Below, piece after piece: positions 2,391-55,130 of a stretch of 64,000 bases of DNA. The notes beneath the pieces are model-generated. The model saw only the letters and a program-made list of their open reading frames with translations, was not told where the DNA came from and ran no database searches. Positions within the stretch are counted from its first letter, which is position 1; each line of letters begins with the position of its first letter. Source of the DNA: Sipunculus nudus (taxonomy: Eukaryota; Annelida; Sipuncula; Golfingiida; Sipunculidae); the NCBI GenBank assembly GCA_026874595.1, contig CM049316.1:30053339-30117338 (forward strand). Reading direction: 5' to 3'. The position numbers and the translations under genes were made by a program.

Positions 2391-2513
2391 GAGGTGGGAT
2401 ACATCTTGCAGGGGTAGAAGGATAATAAACTTGAAGGTTGGGACAACAATTAAGTTTAAGGTTTTGAAGAATAAGGGATTTGTAGGTTTCTAGTATAGGT
2501 CAATTATAAACTA

Positions 2514-2517
<4 letters not shown>

Positions 2518-2565
<48 letters not shown>
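2518..2565. repeat. (AT)n microsatellite
   Basis: A pure AT dinucleotide run of about 48 bp, 130 bp downstream of a longer one. Confidence 0.95.
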
Positions 2566-2569
<4 letters not shown>

Positions 2570-2711
2570 ATCTAATAGTAAATTCAGAAAAAGAACCAAA
2601 GCCTAATATAATCCCAGTTATTAATATATTTCATTTGTAATATATTAATATCATTCTCTGAATACAAGGGGGATGATTACATTGACTATCCCTCTTGAAA
2701 AAAGTGGGTAA

Positions 2712-2740
2712 CCCCCCCCCCCCCCCCCACACACACACAC
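2712..2740. repeat. Poly-C followed by (AC)n
   Basis: About 17 C residues run straight into (AC)6. The same poly-C plus (AC)n pairing recurs at 62729-62776. Confidence 0.9.
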
Positions 2741-2960
2741 GTATTGACGCACCCGGGTCTTTTGCCGATTGAAGCGTGTCTTGGTGTTATTTAAACATTC
2801 CTATAGACCTATATAAAGGCAAAAAAAATTTAATATTTCATATGACGATAAGGTCATACTTCAGAGTATTTTCGGGAACAGGCCTATAGCTGAAGAGCTG
2901 CAAATTCCCTTAAATTTCCCTGGAGAACTTCCACCTGGTCGTCCCAGGCTTACCCTTGAA

Positions 2961-2970
2961 TTTCACTTTC
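2961..2970 (-). promoter_or_regulatory. IRF-binding-like element GAAAGTGAAA
   Basis: The plus strand reads TTTCACTTTC, so the minus strand has GAAAGTGAAA. This fits the IRF core GAAANNGAAA and resembles the positive regulatory domain of interferon promoters. It lies 241 bp before a palindromic kB site and belongs to the same cluster of immune-type motifs. Binding is inferred from the motif only. Confidence 0.4.
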
Positions 2971-3201
2971 GACATTTCAGTAGATCTAGGGGCCTATTTT
3001 ATTGTAAGAAATAATCCAGAGGGTCATTCTGCATACGTTCAACGTAGCGATTTTTTTTTTCACTATAAATATAATTATTGATATCGGAATGGGAAAAATG
3101 CGTGCCCACCCTTTCACGCACATGATTGCGGTGGGTTGGGGGAGGGAACAGGCCTCTAGGGGTGAAAGGTCAGGTTTCGTTCCTTAATGATCTGCTGACC
3201 A

Positions 3202-3213
3202 GGGGAATTCCCC
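3202..3213. promoter_or_regulatory. Palindromic NF-kB site GGGGAATTCCCC
   Basis: This is a perfect 12-bp palindrome that contains the optimal Rel/NF-kB decamer GGGAATTCCC. A second palindromic kB site follows 430 bp downstream. Exact palindromic kB decamers should be rare by chance in AT-rich DNA. Confidence 0.5.
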
Positions 3214-3599
3214 AATGAAATCGGTGCAAGTCTACTTATGAAATATTGATGAAACACTATGATAAAATTAGATTCAAAATATATCGTAAATAAATATTAC
3301 AATATCATTCAAGTCTTGGTTTATGTATTCACTTGTGCTATTTAATCACGGGATAATGAGGAATCCCATGTGTTGTGTATCGTATGTCGTGCAGTCACCA
3401 ATCTATGTCAAGTCGAGAGAAAAAAAACACGAGCGCGATCGGACATACCCCGAATATCTCCGGAGAGTACCGAGGACAAAACAAACAGTAAAATTATATG
3501 TAAATTCACGCTTATCAGGTTTATTTCTCTTCAAATATTAAAATTTTTAGATTTATTAAAATAAGCTGACAATTTCTTAATAAATATCTTTATTACTAG

Positions 3600-3986
3600 T
3601 ATTTACGTTTTTTCCGTTTTATGCCGAACATTCGCTGGCTCGGTGGGATTTCCCAGAATTTAGTGGCTCTGGGCAGCTTGGAACGAAACTGAAACTTCCG
3701 AAGATTAGTTGGCAACTTAATATTCATTCTACAGTGGCAAGTGAGTTGTTACACGTGCTTTTCATGGAAGAAATCTATCAGCTATTATGCTGATTGGAAT
3801 ACATCATATTCAACCGGTTTTAGATCATATTTCGCTTTGGATTGATGTGACAGTCGTTTTTTCACTGGTTACTTCCGCAATTCCATGACTCAGACAGTGG
3901 GCTGGTGGGGGCGCTGTCACCAGGGTCAGAATATAGAGGGTTTGTGTTGTCAGTTTCATGATTTGTCAGGTGCCCGTATAATTCAG
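3600..3986 (+). promoter_or_regulatory. Candidate immune-inducible promoter and non-coding first exon
   Basis: Read directly: kB decamer GGGATTTCCC at 3645-3654; ISRE core GAAACTGAAACT at 3685-3696; E-box CACGTG at 3752-3757; inverted CCAAT at about 3793; C/EBP-like TTCCGCAAT at 3873-3881; AP-1 TGACTCA at 3886-3892; and a GC-box-like GGGGGCG near 3906. A consensus-like splice donor (CAG then GTAATT) follows at 3986/3987. kB next to ISRE is the known layout of inducible immune promoters such as MHC class I and interferon-beta. The only recognised downstream gene on this strand is the IRF, whose first coding exon begins with a splice acceptor 39 kb away. The link to that gene is inference; the island could instead serve an unseen gene on either strand. 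Confidence 0.45.
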
Positions 3987-4611
3987 GTAATTACTGATGT
4001 CTCTTAATAGCCAAGGGCCATAGTAAGGCATAATTATATTAATTATCAATAGCTTTTAGTTTAATAATATTGATTCAATATTATTTTAAAAATATTAAAT
4101 TAATATTATGACATATGTTACTTTTTTTAAATAATAGGTCATATTACGCTTCCACTTTATTTCTGCTTCATTGGCATATTATGACATTTCCCAGACAGCA
4201 CCATGCAGTCAGACTGTCGTCAGCTATGAATGGCAATTTGCCCCCAGCTAGACTATTTCATCGTTGCCAGGAAAGCGGATTCTAGCCCAGTGAGGACTTC
4301 ACCAGAGACAAAGTTTTTCTTACACAGGATGCTGGGTCAATGTGGTGTCAGTTTAAACAAAATGTAACAATGGCTCTGTGGCAGTCTTTGCTGGACTGAT
4401 ATCACTTGAACATGGCTCTGATTAAATAGTCTAAATGTTGTTATAGGTTGAAAAGCTGAAACAAAGTGGTGTAACATGGCCTATTATTCCATTAGAGAAA
4501 ACTTACATTAACAGTGCCCTTTGTCCTTGTCAATTCTAATATCAGTTGCTTACAAAATAATAGTTTTGCTAGCAATTATAAATTACTTAATAATAGCTAG
4601 AGCACTTGGCA

Positions 4612-16400: not shown

Positions 16401-16811
16401 AAAACCTGTTTCAGTTTGTCATATTTTTCAACTTTTACTTAATTTTTTTTCACTCATATGTAAACTAGTCCAGCACTAGCAGAAATGCGGGGCCCTCTGA
16501 GGACCATTGTCCGACCACATCTAGTTTATGTTATCAGCCATTTGATCACAAAAATACAAAGGTATATTTACCAGTACTTCCAAGAATTCGTGCCATTTCT
16601 TCAAAACTGCAGATTTTCATGCCTCTGTTTTTGTTATGATCAGACTTTGTGTCATAAAGACACATGTATGATTGGTACAAATTCAAAAGATCCTCGTTTT
16701 TTTTGCTTTGTCCATTTCTTGAAACTAGTTTTTGATGACCTCAGCTACCCCAGTGCTGTGACCTAAACTCCTGCAATTCTGTTGGCTCACATTGAATGAG
16801 ACTTGACACCA

Positions 16812-22590: not shown

Positions 22591-25085
22591 AGACATTTCT
22601 TGGCACCGGAGGTGCCAGAGTATCCCAAGACATAGTAGCCCCCCCCCCCCCCCCCCAAGAATAGACCCCCATTTTCAGCAGCATATACTGACACTTGGCA
22701 TATTTATTGTTTCTTCCATCTAACAATCCACAATCTTGTTGAAGATGTTGGTCCTGTGACCTTGATCTTTTTAAAGATGTGTCCTTGACCTTTGACCCCA
22801 TGACCCCAAAATCAATTTGGGTCTTGCTTGTCCAATGGGACATATGCAAGTCCAGTTTGAATCTATACATCAATAAAGCAGGAATTATCATCCAGAAACT
22901 AATCTTTTTTGGACAGATGGCTCCTGTGACCTTCACCTTTGACCTTGTGACCTCAAAATTGAAAGTGTTCTTCCTCTCTTGGCAGGAGAACTATATATGC
23001 AAGATGAAAGATCTGAGATGAAATGTTTGGACGAAAATGCAAATACATCTTTTTAAAGATGTGTCCTGTGACCTTGACCTTTGACCTCATGACCCCAAAA
23101 TCAATTTTGGTCTTGCTTTTCCAAAGGGACATATACAAGTCAAGTTTGAAATCCATACATCAATAAAAGCAGGAATTATCATCCAGAAACTAATTTTTGG
23201 ACAGATGGCTCCTGTGACCTTCACCTTTGACCTTGTGACCTCAAAATTGATAGGGGTCTTCCACTCATGGCAGGTGAACTATATGTGCAAGATGAGACAT
23301 CTGAGATGAATTGTTTTGCTGAAAATGCATCCACGATCTTTTTAAAGAGGTTTCCTGTGACCTTAACCTTTGACCTCATGACCCCAAAATCAATTTTGGT
23401 CTTGCTTTTCCAATGGGTCAAATACAAGGCAAGTTTGAAATCCATACATCAATAAAAGCAGGAATTATCATCCAGAAACTAATTTTTAGACAGATGGCTC
23501 CTGTGACCTTCACCTTTGACCTTGTGACCTCAAAATTGATAGGGGTCTTCTACTCTTGGGAGGTGAACTATATGTGCAAGATGAAAGATCTGAGATGAAT
23601 TGTTTGGCTTAAAAATGCAACCACAATCTTTTTAAAGAGGTTTCCTGTGACCTTGACTTTTGACCTCATGACCCCAAAATCAATTGGGGTCTTGCTTTTC
23701 CAATGGGTCAAATACAAGTCAAGTTTGAAATCCATACATCAATAAAAGAAGGAATTATCATTCAGAAACTAATTTTTGGACAGATGGCTCCTGTGACCTT
23801 CACCTTTGACCTTGTGAATTCAAATGTGATAGGGGTCTTCCTCTCTTGGCAGGTGAACTATATGTGCAAGATGAAAGATCTGAGATGAAATGTTTGGCTG
23901 AAAATGCATCCACAATCTTTTTAAAGATGTGTCCTGTGACCTTGACCTTTGACCTCATGACCAAAAATCAATTTGGGTCTTGCTTTTCCAATGGGACATA
24001 TACAAGTCAAGATTGAAATCCATACATCAATAAAAGCAGGAATTATCATCCAGGAACTAATTTTTGGACAGATGGCTCCTGTGACCTTCACCTTTGACCT
24101 TGTGACCTCAAAACTGATAGGGGTCTTCCTCTATTGGCAGATGACTTATATGTGCAAGATGAAAGGTCTGAGATGAAATGTTTGGCTGAAAATGCATCAA
24201 CAATCTTTTTAAAGATGTGTCCTGTGTCCTATCATCCAGAAACTAATTTTTGGACAGATAGCTCCTTGTGACCCCAAAATTTATATGGATCATCCACTAC
24301 TGGCAAGTGAGCTATATATTCAAGATGGAAGACCTGGGATGAAAGTTTGGCTTAAAATGCATCCACAGTATCTTTTAAAATGCCAGTCCAGTGACCTTGA
24401 CCTTTGACCTCATTACCCTAGAACCTATAGGGTTCTTACTTTAGTGGTGGGCCATACATGAGTCATGTTTGAAATCCATATGGCTATCAACACTGAAGAT
24501 ATCATAAGAGGTGTGTGATTTTCACCATATATGGCAATATTCAAGGTCAAGGCCACTATCATAGGAAAGGTCATGACCCCAATTTAAATAAACATCATCC
24601 CATAACCCATATCTATGTATATGCATAATATAAAAGAAATCTGTCCATTAGTTTTTGACTTATAATGCTCACAGTACTGTAAGGTGGCAATTTTGGGGGT
24701 ATTAGACGGCACGAAAACAAGTAAAGAATAATAGGTGGGGCCACCAGTTTCTGGAACATGACAACCCTATGATCCATGATCTTCCATCAACTTGATTTTG
24801 GGATAATTCCATGCAAAATTTCTTGAGATATTAAAGAATTTGTGTGATTTTCCCCAAAATTGGACCTATTCAAGGTCAAGGACACTCTCCTAGTAAAGGT
24901 CATGACCTCATTTTAAATAGGGGTCGTCCTCTTACCCATATCTATACATATACCAAGTTTTGTAAAGTTCCGTGAAATATTTTCTTTGGTTATCGCGCCA
25001 ACAAGATTTATATGCGGCGGCGGCGATGGCGGCGGGGGGACCGGTATGAAAACATAGTATCCCCCGACTTTGTCTTGGGATACAA
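22591..25085 (+). mobile_element. GTATCCCAAGACA element (family B), nested insertion
   Basis: The left end has a perfect 7-bp hairpin (TGGCACC, GGA loop, GGTGCCA; 22601-22617), then GTATCCCAAGACATAGTAG and a poly-C tract (about 22637-22657). The right end reads GACTTTGTCTTGGGATAC, inverted relative to the left. The flanks together match the uninterrupted family A sequence near 33310-33345, so this is an insertion into a family A copy. The interior carries a 289-bp tandem array plus decayed units. No protein is encoded. Confidence 0.65.
22750..24260 (+). repeat. 289-bp tandem array, five units plus a partial
   Basis: The anchor CATCAATAAA falls at about 22868, 23158, 23447, 23737 and 24025, a period of 288-290 bp. 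Each unit holds two related segments: TGTGACCTTGACCTTTGACC and TGTGACCTTCACCTTTGACC. On the minus strand these read as AGGTCA half-sites. 23075-23087 is a perfect DR1 (TGACCT-T-TGACCT), with another half-site directly adjacent (23069-23074). DR1 is the known site class for RXR/HNF4/PPAR-type receptors. Whether these repeats bind receptors is unknown. Confidence 0.85.
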
Positions 25086-25978: not shown

Positions 25979-27100
25979 TTTTTAGCTCAGCTGACTTTCA
26001 GTCATGCTGGGCTATAGCGATGGGTCTTTGTCCGTCGTCCTTCCGTCTGTCTGTCCGGCCGGCCGTCCGGCCGTTAGCAGGGCACAAATCGCAACCGTAG
26101 GGGTTAGGGCCATGAACCCTATGCAGTCTTAGAGGTTACAAAAAGATCTCCTTGCAAACCTGAAATTAGGTCACTGCGGCCTATATTCTCGAAGTTATGG
26201 GGTGTGTTTGCACCCCCCAGAAATAACTCTTTGAGACAAAATTTTCATCCCAAACCTTCCATCTTTCACATACAGCTCACCTACCAACAGGGGAAGAACC
26301 ATAATTTTTTTGAGGTCCAAAGGTCAAGGTCACAGGAGCCTCTTCTTTGAAAAGCCTGTGGATGCATTTTAAGCCAACCCTTTCATCCCAATTCTTTGAT
26401 ATTTCACATATAGCTCACCTACTAGGTTGGAGAAGAATCCTATAGATTTTGAGGTCACAAGGACAAAGGTCAGGGTCACAGGATCCACTTCTTTGAAAAG
26501 GTTGTGGACACATTTCAAGCTAGACTTTTCATTCCAAACCTTCCAGCACTGATATCGCTTCTCTGCCAACAGGGGAAAAGACCTGTTGATTTTGAGGTCA
26601 AAGGTCAAGTTCACAGCACCCACTTCTTGCGTGGAGTCATTTTCAGGCAAACTTTTCAATCTGTACCTTCCATCTGTCATATATGGCTTACCTACCAATA
26701 AGGGAAGAAGCCTATTGATGTTGAGGTCAAAAAGTCAAAAGGTCAAGGTCACAATATTTAATTGTTCTAAATGCTTGTGAGCATATTTCAAGTGTAACTG
26801 TTCAACCCAAACCTTCAGTCTTTCACATATGCCACATCTATGCATCACTCAGTTTGACTCAAACTTCATATTTATGGGTCTTTTTGCTTGAATAAATAAC
26901 TTATTGATTTTGGGGTCAGCTGGTCAGCAGGTTAAAGGTTGCAGGTCAAAGTTATTCACCCATTGGTTGCCAAGTAATTACACCAGATTTAAGTGGTTAG
27001 TAGTTACCCATCATTTAGAAAGAATCCAGTTGATATATGGGCAAAAGGCCAAGGTCATAGGTCAGGGATGTTCACAATTACTTATTTTATAGACCATCTC
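25979..27100 (+). mobile_element. Family A-prime head with AGGTCA-rich body
   Basis: The head TTTTTAGCTCAGCTGACTTT and CTATAGCGATGGGTC lead into GTCCGTCGTCC runs. The next 200 bp match 59809-60060 rather than the main family A body. From 26310 to 27070 there are repeated blocks of AGGTCAAAGGTCAAGGTCAC type, on the opposite strand to those at 22.7-24.3 kb. They include a perfect DR1 at 26595-26607 and the extended half-site TCAAGGTCA at 26324-26332 and 26743-26751. Non-coding. Confidence 0.6.
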
Positions 27101-42846: not shown

Positions 42847-42859
42847 ATAACAGATAGAG
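42847..42859 (+). other. 5' UTR part of first coding exon
   Basis: A splice acceptor (TTGTTTTCAG, AG at 42845-42846) precedes 13 untranslated bases and the ATG at 42860. The first coding exon is therefore not the first exon of the transcript. Confidence 0.6.
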
Positions 42860-53666
<10,807 letters not shown>

Positions 53667-54580: not shown

Positions 54581-55120
54581 TGTACGGACTTTTTTTCGCA
54601 ATGCCTGCAGATATTGGCCTGATTTTTGGTGTGTTGGCAGATAATGACCAGTTACAGATCGAGTTCGCGTTTCGTCCCGGTTGACCTACTTTTGACTGTT
54701 TCACGGCTCCTAAACTTAGAAAATTTCATGAAAAATATAAATTTTCATGACAAATACACATGTACGGACTTTTTTTCGCAATGCCTGCAGATATTGGCCT
54801 GATTTTTGGTGTGTGGGCAGATAATGACCAGTTACAGATTGAGTTCGCGTTTTGTCCCGGTTTACCTACTTTTGACCGTTTTACGGCTCCTAAACTTAGA
54901 AAATTTCATGAAAAATATAAATTTTCATGACAAATACACATGTACGAACTTTTTTTCGCAATGCCTGCAGATATTGGCCTGATTTTTGGTGTGTGGGCAG
55001 ATAATGACCAGTTACAGATCGAGTTGGCGTTTCATCCCGGTTGACCTACTTTTGACCGTTTTAGGGCTCCTAAACTTAGAAAAATTCATGAAAAATAGAA
55101 ATTTTCATGACAAATACACA
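54581..55120 (+). repeat. 180-bp tandem array, three units
   Basis: Units start at 54581, 54761 and 54941 with TGTACGGACTTTTTTTCGC (the third has one change). They are highly similar. Two more diverged units follow the nested insertion (about 55810-55985 and 55990-56150). Confidence 0.9.
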
Positions 55121-55130
55121 TGTACAGCTG

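Follow-up and report, generated by a model that had tools for sequence, protein, structure and literature searches.

The promoter of mammalian IRF1 is described as having conserved NF-kB sites near its start, with NF-kB and IRF1 signal in chromatin immunoprecipitation sequencing (PMC4430024); in a second account, it carries a single gamma-activated sequence (GAS) element, TTCN2-4GAA, and not an interferon-stimulated response element (ISRE) of the ISGF3 type (PMC7819612). Mammalian IRF4 is presented as a direct Rel/NF-kB target, with binding and expression data that include Rel-deficient B cells (PMC10457194). Virus or poly(I:C) reportedly induces oyster IRF genes, two of which encode products that act on ISRE reporters (PMC5557890). 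The locus considered here lies in a 64,000-nucleotide stretch of the genome of the sipunculan Sipunculus nudus (GenBank assembly GCA_026874595.1, contig CM049316.1, positions 30,053,339 to 30,117,338 of the forward strand; hereafter the window). Words matching NF-kB (kB), IRF (ISRE), ETS, E-box, C/EBP and AP-1 sites are grouped near its left end, and an IRF gene lies downstream. The region at 2.75-4.0 kb is tentatively read as promoter-type and as serving an inducible immune gene; the likeliest target would be the IRF gene, reached via a first intron of approximately 39 kb.

As in the mammalian IRF1 promoter, so far as the cited accounts describe it, kB words occur here together with two TTCN3GAA words (3650 and 3761), which are weak; unlike that promoter, the region has a canonical ISRE, a GC content of approximately 38% and a coding exon 39 kb away. 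NF-kB-to-IRF wiring at an IRF gene would be shared with mammalian IRF4 as it is presented; here, this wiring is read from DNA words alone. Composite kB/IRF/AP-1 enhancers of the IFN-beta type are contiguous and approximately 55 bp long. Words of these three kinds also lie together in the present locus; in contrast to the IFN-beta type, they are spread over 250 bp, are not contiguous and are known from sequence alone. The region resembles the CpG-rich promoters described for non-vertebrate deuterostomes in its high CpG score (PMC3333190), found here amid CpG-poor sequence.

Motif density in the cluster

The seven motifs named in the original prediction were each recovered by word search at the coordinate and on the strand given for them (Table 1). 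Five classes were defined by consensus words: kB (GGGRNWYYCC), ISRE (GAAANNGAAA), E-box (CACGTG), strict C/EBP words and AP-1 (TGASTCA). All five fall inside one 250-bp span beginning at 3645 (3645-3892). The canonical ISRE GAAACTGAAACT and the kB site GGGATTTCCC are separated by 41 bp, centre to centre. In shuffles of the window that preserved dinucleotides in 2-kb blocks, no 250-bp span contained four or more of the five classes (0/300; the maximum was three); 1000-bp spans contained four classes in 6 of 300 shuffles and five in none. Column-permuted motif sets run on the real sequence gave five classes in 0/400 cases and four in 1/400. The kB and ISRE words are therefore denser than chance, as would be expected of the promoter of an inducible immune gene, and this result is weaker under a free vocabulary of motifs (see below).

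The palindrome GGGGAATTCCCC at 3202 has 0.0007 copies expected from base composition. Two palindromic kB decamers had been proposed; the site at 3202 is palindromic, but GGGATTTCCC at 3645 is not. The other copy of GGGATTTCCC (46332, minus strand) lies inside an open reading frame (ORF), 46177-46542, within the span of the IRF gene; this ORF is a putative exon at most. The ETS word CGGAAGT occurs twice in all 64 kb, at 3694 and 3871, both within the cluster. The probability of at least two occurrences in 2900-3990 is 0.003 under a first-order Markov model built from the region's own dinucleotides, for a word that was picked after looking and was one of six counted. When the observed numbers of sites were placed at random (100,000 trials), placements in which two kB sites lay within 443 bp and one of them had an ISRE no more than 40 bp away made up 0.38%. 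The AP-1 count is at the shuffled expectation (8 against 9.0 expected). ISRE cores are enriched across the whole window (12 observed, 5.1 expected from shuffles); consequently, a single ISRE core is worth less.

TTCN3GAA words occur 27 times in the window and the GAS-like words at 3650 and 3761 are therefore weak. The idea that the cluster is without GAS words was dropped; the strict form TTCCNGGAA is absent, yet two TTCN3GAA words are there.

CpG landscape

The window is CpG-depleted, with an observed/expected (o/e) ratio of 0.41 overall. The 1-kb windows starting at 2501-3301 have ratios of 0.89-1.00. A ratio of at least 0.85 is reached by 31 of 630 1-kb windows, which form blocks at 2.5-4.3, 13.0-14.2, 48.2-49.9, 50.7-52.5 and 54.3-55.5 kb; among these five, the five-class motif combination is present in the 2.5-4.3 kb block alone. 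Where a genome is CpG-depleted, a CpG-normal stretch is often the sign of an unmethylated promoter. The CpG-normal signature expected of a promoter is present here relative to its surroundings, as judged from the o/e ratio, but it is off-centre from the supposed start. High CpG scores are reported for promoters of non-vertebrate deuterostomes, ascidians among them (PMC3333190). The support from CpG and CGGAAGT partly overlaps with that from the cluster, since CpG occurs in CACGTG, in the C/EBP site and in CGGAAGT.

Self-BLAST of the window (E 1e-5, low-complexity filter on) found no other copy of 2.6-4.6 kb. With the filter off, the matches listed were, besides self, AT microsatellite only. 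A transposon or repeat origin of the cluster region was set aside, as the filtered search found no second copy within the 64-kb window. A 16-base direct repeat, GGGAACAGGCCTMTAG (15/16 alike), is found just upstream of the cluster, at 2874-2889 and 3144-3159.

The downstream IRF gene

The IRF gene that had been proposed downstream is real, as established by domain profiles and structural relatives. The two exons of its DNA-binding domain match PF00605 (E 3.3e-17 for 42847-43018; 2.2e-11 for 43456-43636). Among solved structures IRF2 is nearest (117 bits), followed by IRF1 (103), IRF4 (98) and IRF3 (79). Three further stretches match PF10401 in order, covering profile positions 2-38, 51-92 and 105-179, with E-values of 1.7e-4, 1.9e-6 and 3.7e-5; the middle stretch alone passes the curated cut-off. 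The gene thus pairs an IRF2-nearest DNA-binding domain with an association domain of the IRF-3 type. To our knowledge, vertebrate IRF1 and IRF2 are without an association domain of this type; the pairing would suit an invertebrate gene.

The acceptor of the first coding exon is TTTTCAG/A, and three codons lie between the TAA and the ATG. Since this in-frame TAA directly follows the acceptor, the upstream exon would be non-coding if the acceptor is used; the arrangement is as expected if a non-coding exon sits further upstream. The first two coding introns of the window gene are in phases 0 and 1. In the entries considered from PMC2885996, vertebrate IRF1, IRF4 and IRF8 open with phases 0 then 1, as do 5 of 7 lancelet rows; the two sea urchin genes and 2 of 3 acorn worm entries have phase 2 first (PMC2885996). 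The phase pattern of the window gene does not point to one taxon.

The interval between the cluster and the IRF gene

Between 1 and 42.6 kb, 213 of the 225 ORFs of at least 52 amino acids on both strands were screened against Pfam; the other 12 were of low complexity and were left out. Six single weak matches were obtained at or below 0.01, where approximately two would be expected by chance in 213; weak-match ORFs were traced individually for ten ORFs. No clear gene was found among the 213 ORFs by this screen, which shorter exons would escape. From 36 to 42.8 kb no 1-kb window reaches an o/e ratio of 0.85; a promoter directly upstream of the IRF coding exon was set aside for want of such a block, though only provisionally. 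The nearest one upstream of the exon is at 13-14 kb. Two CpG-normal blocks precede the IRF gene (2.5-4.3 and 13.0-14.2 kb) and the motifs are found in the first only. The IRF gene is the likeliest, though unproven, target of the cluster; this is argued by elimination, given the lack of a clear Pfam gene in between and of a CpG-normal window at 36-42.8 kb. The 13.0-14.2 kb block and the ISRE words at 39.4-40.2 kb stand as competing candidates in the interval.

Other products of the cluster region itself were considered. A coding exon was rejected, as the ORFs of at least 52 amino acids located there were among the 213 screened and gave no clear gene; ORF 3290-3538, the one in the cluster region among the ten checked individually, has no Pfam match. 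A structured RNA was rejected on Rfam, tRNA and folding tests. The window contains no Rfam match at gathering score and no tRNA, and 3620-3990, folded as DNA, is not more stable than shuffles (z -0.87; 20/100 as good).

Proposed mechanism and alternative explanations

The cluster region is probably a regulatory element of a familiar type, a promoter or an enhancer. We infer factor binding, start site, splice and target as follows. Rel/NF-kB dimers would bind at 3645 (and 3202), IRF and ETS factors jointly at 3685-3700, a basic helix-loop-helix factor at 3752, and C/EBP with AP-1 at 3871-3892. The motif-dense half, 3645-3892, would lie upstream of a start, perhaps at 3.93-3.97 kb; a short non-coding exon would end at 3986 and be spliced over approximately 39 kb to 42847. 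The target would be the same-strand IRF gene at 42.8-50.6 kb, which would be induced by Rel and may regulate itself through the ISRE. The original prediction had made the cluster the distal promoter or enhancer of this gene; the dense cluster, the CpG-normal block, the real IRF gene and the acceptor compatible with a non-coding exon all agree with it, and the link to IRF is its conjectural part. The fullest version of the proposal is doubtful: a distal promoter approximately 39 kb upstream of an invertebrate IRF gene, with a Rel/IRF/ETS/C/EBP/AP-1 module resembling an enhanceosome and a feed-forward that would either predate the vertebrates or have evolved twice.

A number of points weigh against the assignment of the cluster to the IRF gene as a promoter, beginning with its density. 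The five classes were chosen after the sequence was seen. With a vocabulary of 50 motifs, the 3645-3892 span is still the top 250-bp window of the real sequence; at least five rare classes (motifs hit no more than 15 times, counted afresh in each shuffle) occurred in 10/150 shuffles (~7%), and at least five classes among all motifs in 34/150. A kB site within 40 bp of an ISRE was obtained in 7.3% of random placements, and is thus not rare; in addition, consensus words are not equal to binding. For the named immune classes the density clearly exceeds that of both shuffles and permuted sets; once the free choice of motifs is corrected for, the excess is modest. The words may have come together by chance in a functionless stretch that is young or unmethylated (e.g. 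a single-copy insertion with undecayed CpGs); this would fit the free-vocabulary result, as well as the contents of two other CpG-normal blocks, one with a tandem array (54581-55125) and one with long AT tracts (50822-50967 and 52081-52125). The fixed-vocabulary tests (0/300 and 0/400), the location of both CGGAAGT words of the window in the cluster and the lack of a second copy in the window argue otherwise, and chance is the least probable of the explanations considered.

Further points concern the supposed start and the distance. The four other CpG-normal blocks are without the motif combination; this indicates that being CpG-normal is not enough to make a block a promoter. CpG peaks at 3251-3750 (1.52 and 1.16), upstream of the supposed start, and is 0.65 at 3751-4000; a start near 3.95 kb would sit at the block edge, which tells against it. 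Across 3600-3990, CpG is 0.81 and CpA 1.63. The splice donor that had been proposed at 3987 is present (CAG/GTAATT, with its GT at 3987) and ranks within the top 30 of the 3575 GTs on the plus strand by a donor matrix; three GTs in 2900-4100 (3131, 3741 and 3905) outscore it, and the donor inferred for the IRF gene itself, at 43019, reaches just 1.6 on this matrix. The donor at 3987 is therefore weak evidence. The initiator-like word TCAGTT at 3950 is likewise weak, as it occurs 60 times in the window. For a link between the cluster and the IRF gene 39 kb is far, and a first intron of this length is long beside the first coding intron of 0.4 kb; it is possible, since vertebrate IRF-2 genes are listed as spanning 5.2-52.7 kb (PMC2885996). 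Closer to the IRF gene there are a kB-like word (38201) and three ISRE cores (39375, 39857 and 40152); two of these four words (38201 and 39375) are inside repeats.

The region may instead be a promoter, perhaps bidirectional, that serves a different transcript (from a gene beyond the left end of the window, from a non-coding RNA locus, or from a diverged or short-exon gene), with the IRF promoter situated nearer to its gene. The CpG-normal block needs no IRF link, a rightward start at 3.95 kb is not favoured by a CpG peak at 3.25-3.75 kb, just 2.9 kb is visible on the left side, and the ISRE/kB-like words at 38.2-40.2 kb are nearer. The 213 screened ORFs, which yield weak matches only, speak against another transcript, as does the lack of a block with o/e of at least 0.85 nearer to the IRF exon, on the upstream side, than 13-14 kb. 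The finer CpG profile and the three better-scoring GTs lowered the standing of the IRF promoter explanation and of its fullest version and raised that of another transcript, which is a real possibility. A distal enhancer without its own exon, regulating IRF or other genes, would make the donor at 3987 incidental, in keeping with the weakness of that donor. Mixtures of kB, ISRE, ETS and AP-1 words are typical of enhancers too, but a CpG-normal block of approximately 1 kb is more typical of promoters. A high CpG score is also described as a promoter trait in ascidians (PMC3333190), and an enhancer of this kind is unlikely.

Table 1. Features of the cluster region, the interval and the downstream IRF gene (window coordinates)
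Feature	Position	Strand	Remarks
CpG-normal block	2751..4000		CpG o/e in 250-bp bins 0.70, 0.82, 1.52, 1.16, 0.65; flanking bins 0.44 and 0.36
ISRE/IRF core GAAAGTGAAA	2961..2970	minus	Word match; 2 copies in 64 kb
Perfect palindrome GGGGAATTCCCC containing kB decamer GGGAATTCCC	3202..3213		Word match; 1 copy in 64 kb
kB site GGGATTTCCC	3645..3654	plus	Word match; 2 copies in window
GAS-like TTCN3GAA word TTCCCAGAA	3650		Overlaps kB site at 3645
Canonical ISRE GAAACTGAAACT	3685..3696	plus	Word match; sole copy in window
ETS word CGGAAGT	3694..3700	minus	Overlaps ISRE end; missed by the original prediction
E-box CACGTG	3752..3757		Word match; 8 copies in window
GAS-like word TTCATGGAA (TTCN3GAA)	3761..3769		Word match
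Second ETS word CGGAAGT	3871..3877	minus	Overlaps C/EBP site
C/EBP-like site TTCCGCAAT	3873..3881	plus	Word match; 1 copy in 64 kb
AP-1 site TGACTCA	3886..3892		Word match; 8 copies in window
Possible start region and 3' part of hypothetical non-coding first exon	3950..3986	plus	Putative
Candidate splice donor CAG/GTAATT	3987..3992	plus	Sequence and matrix score
MADF match	16549-16740	minus	3.7e-4; 21.2 bits against cut-off of 22; perhaps transposon remnant
Other weak Pfam matches, one ORF each			Nup35 RRM 0.005; TMEM9 0.006; DUF6032 0.0063; bee toxin 0.0073; viral SH 0.0085
First coding exon, IRF gene	42847..43018	plus	Acceptor AG ends 42846; TAA 42848-42850; ATG 42860; phase 0 end
Second DNA-binding-domain exon, IRF gene	43456..43636	plus	Donor CAG/GTATGT; phase 1 end
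IRF association domain, three stretches	47810-47983, 49755-49883, 50330-50602	plus	Pfam IRF-3 profile PF10401

Other CpG-normal blocks and repeats

The 13.0-14.2 kb block has zero matches to the five motif classes; it may be another candidate start region or an insertion. The block at 48200-49900 (1-kb o/e up to 1.12) spans an IRF intron and the association-domain exon at 49755. It contains one CACGTG and one CGGAAG; it may have been inserted recently, or may act within the gene as a promoter from which a shorter IRF product is made. The 50.7-52.5 kb block lies after the last IRF stretch found and includes two perfect AT-dinucleotide tracts, 50822-50967 with 73 copies and 52081-52125 with 22.5. 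The idea that the AT tracts at 50.7-52.2 kb are flanked by matching sequence was dropped, as self-BLAST found no such run; the 25 listed of 194 inverted pairs are all AT tract. In the 54.3-55.5 kb block, the tandem array at 54581-55125 consists of a 180-base unit present three times, each with a C/EBP-like word and a repeated ORF. High-copy local repeats with related ORFs are found in the interval at 22764-24480 and 26230-26816; the window holds as many as 13 matching pieces for the first and 14 for the second.

Significance

The kind of element described here is already known; this particular instance was not met in the literature searched. No report of kB or ISRE sites in the own promoter of an invertebrate IRF gene was found in that literature, which comprised listings and the beginnings of abstracts. 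A tight group of immune-regulator words in a promoter-like patch is credible, though unproven, as a control switch, and IRF may be the gene that it controls. If the cluster drives something else, it still flags a likely gene start in the region. If it drives IRF, NF-kB-to-IRF wiring outside the vertebrates would have a defined cis-element that can be put to the test; the NF-kB-to-IRF feed-forward and the IRF self-regulation of vertebrate IRF genes would then predate the vertebrates or have arisen twice.
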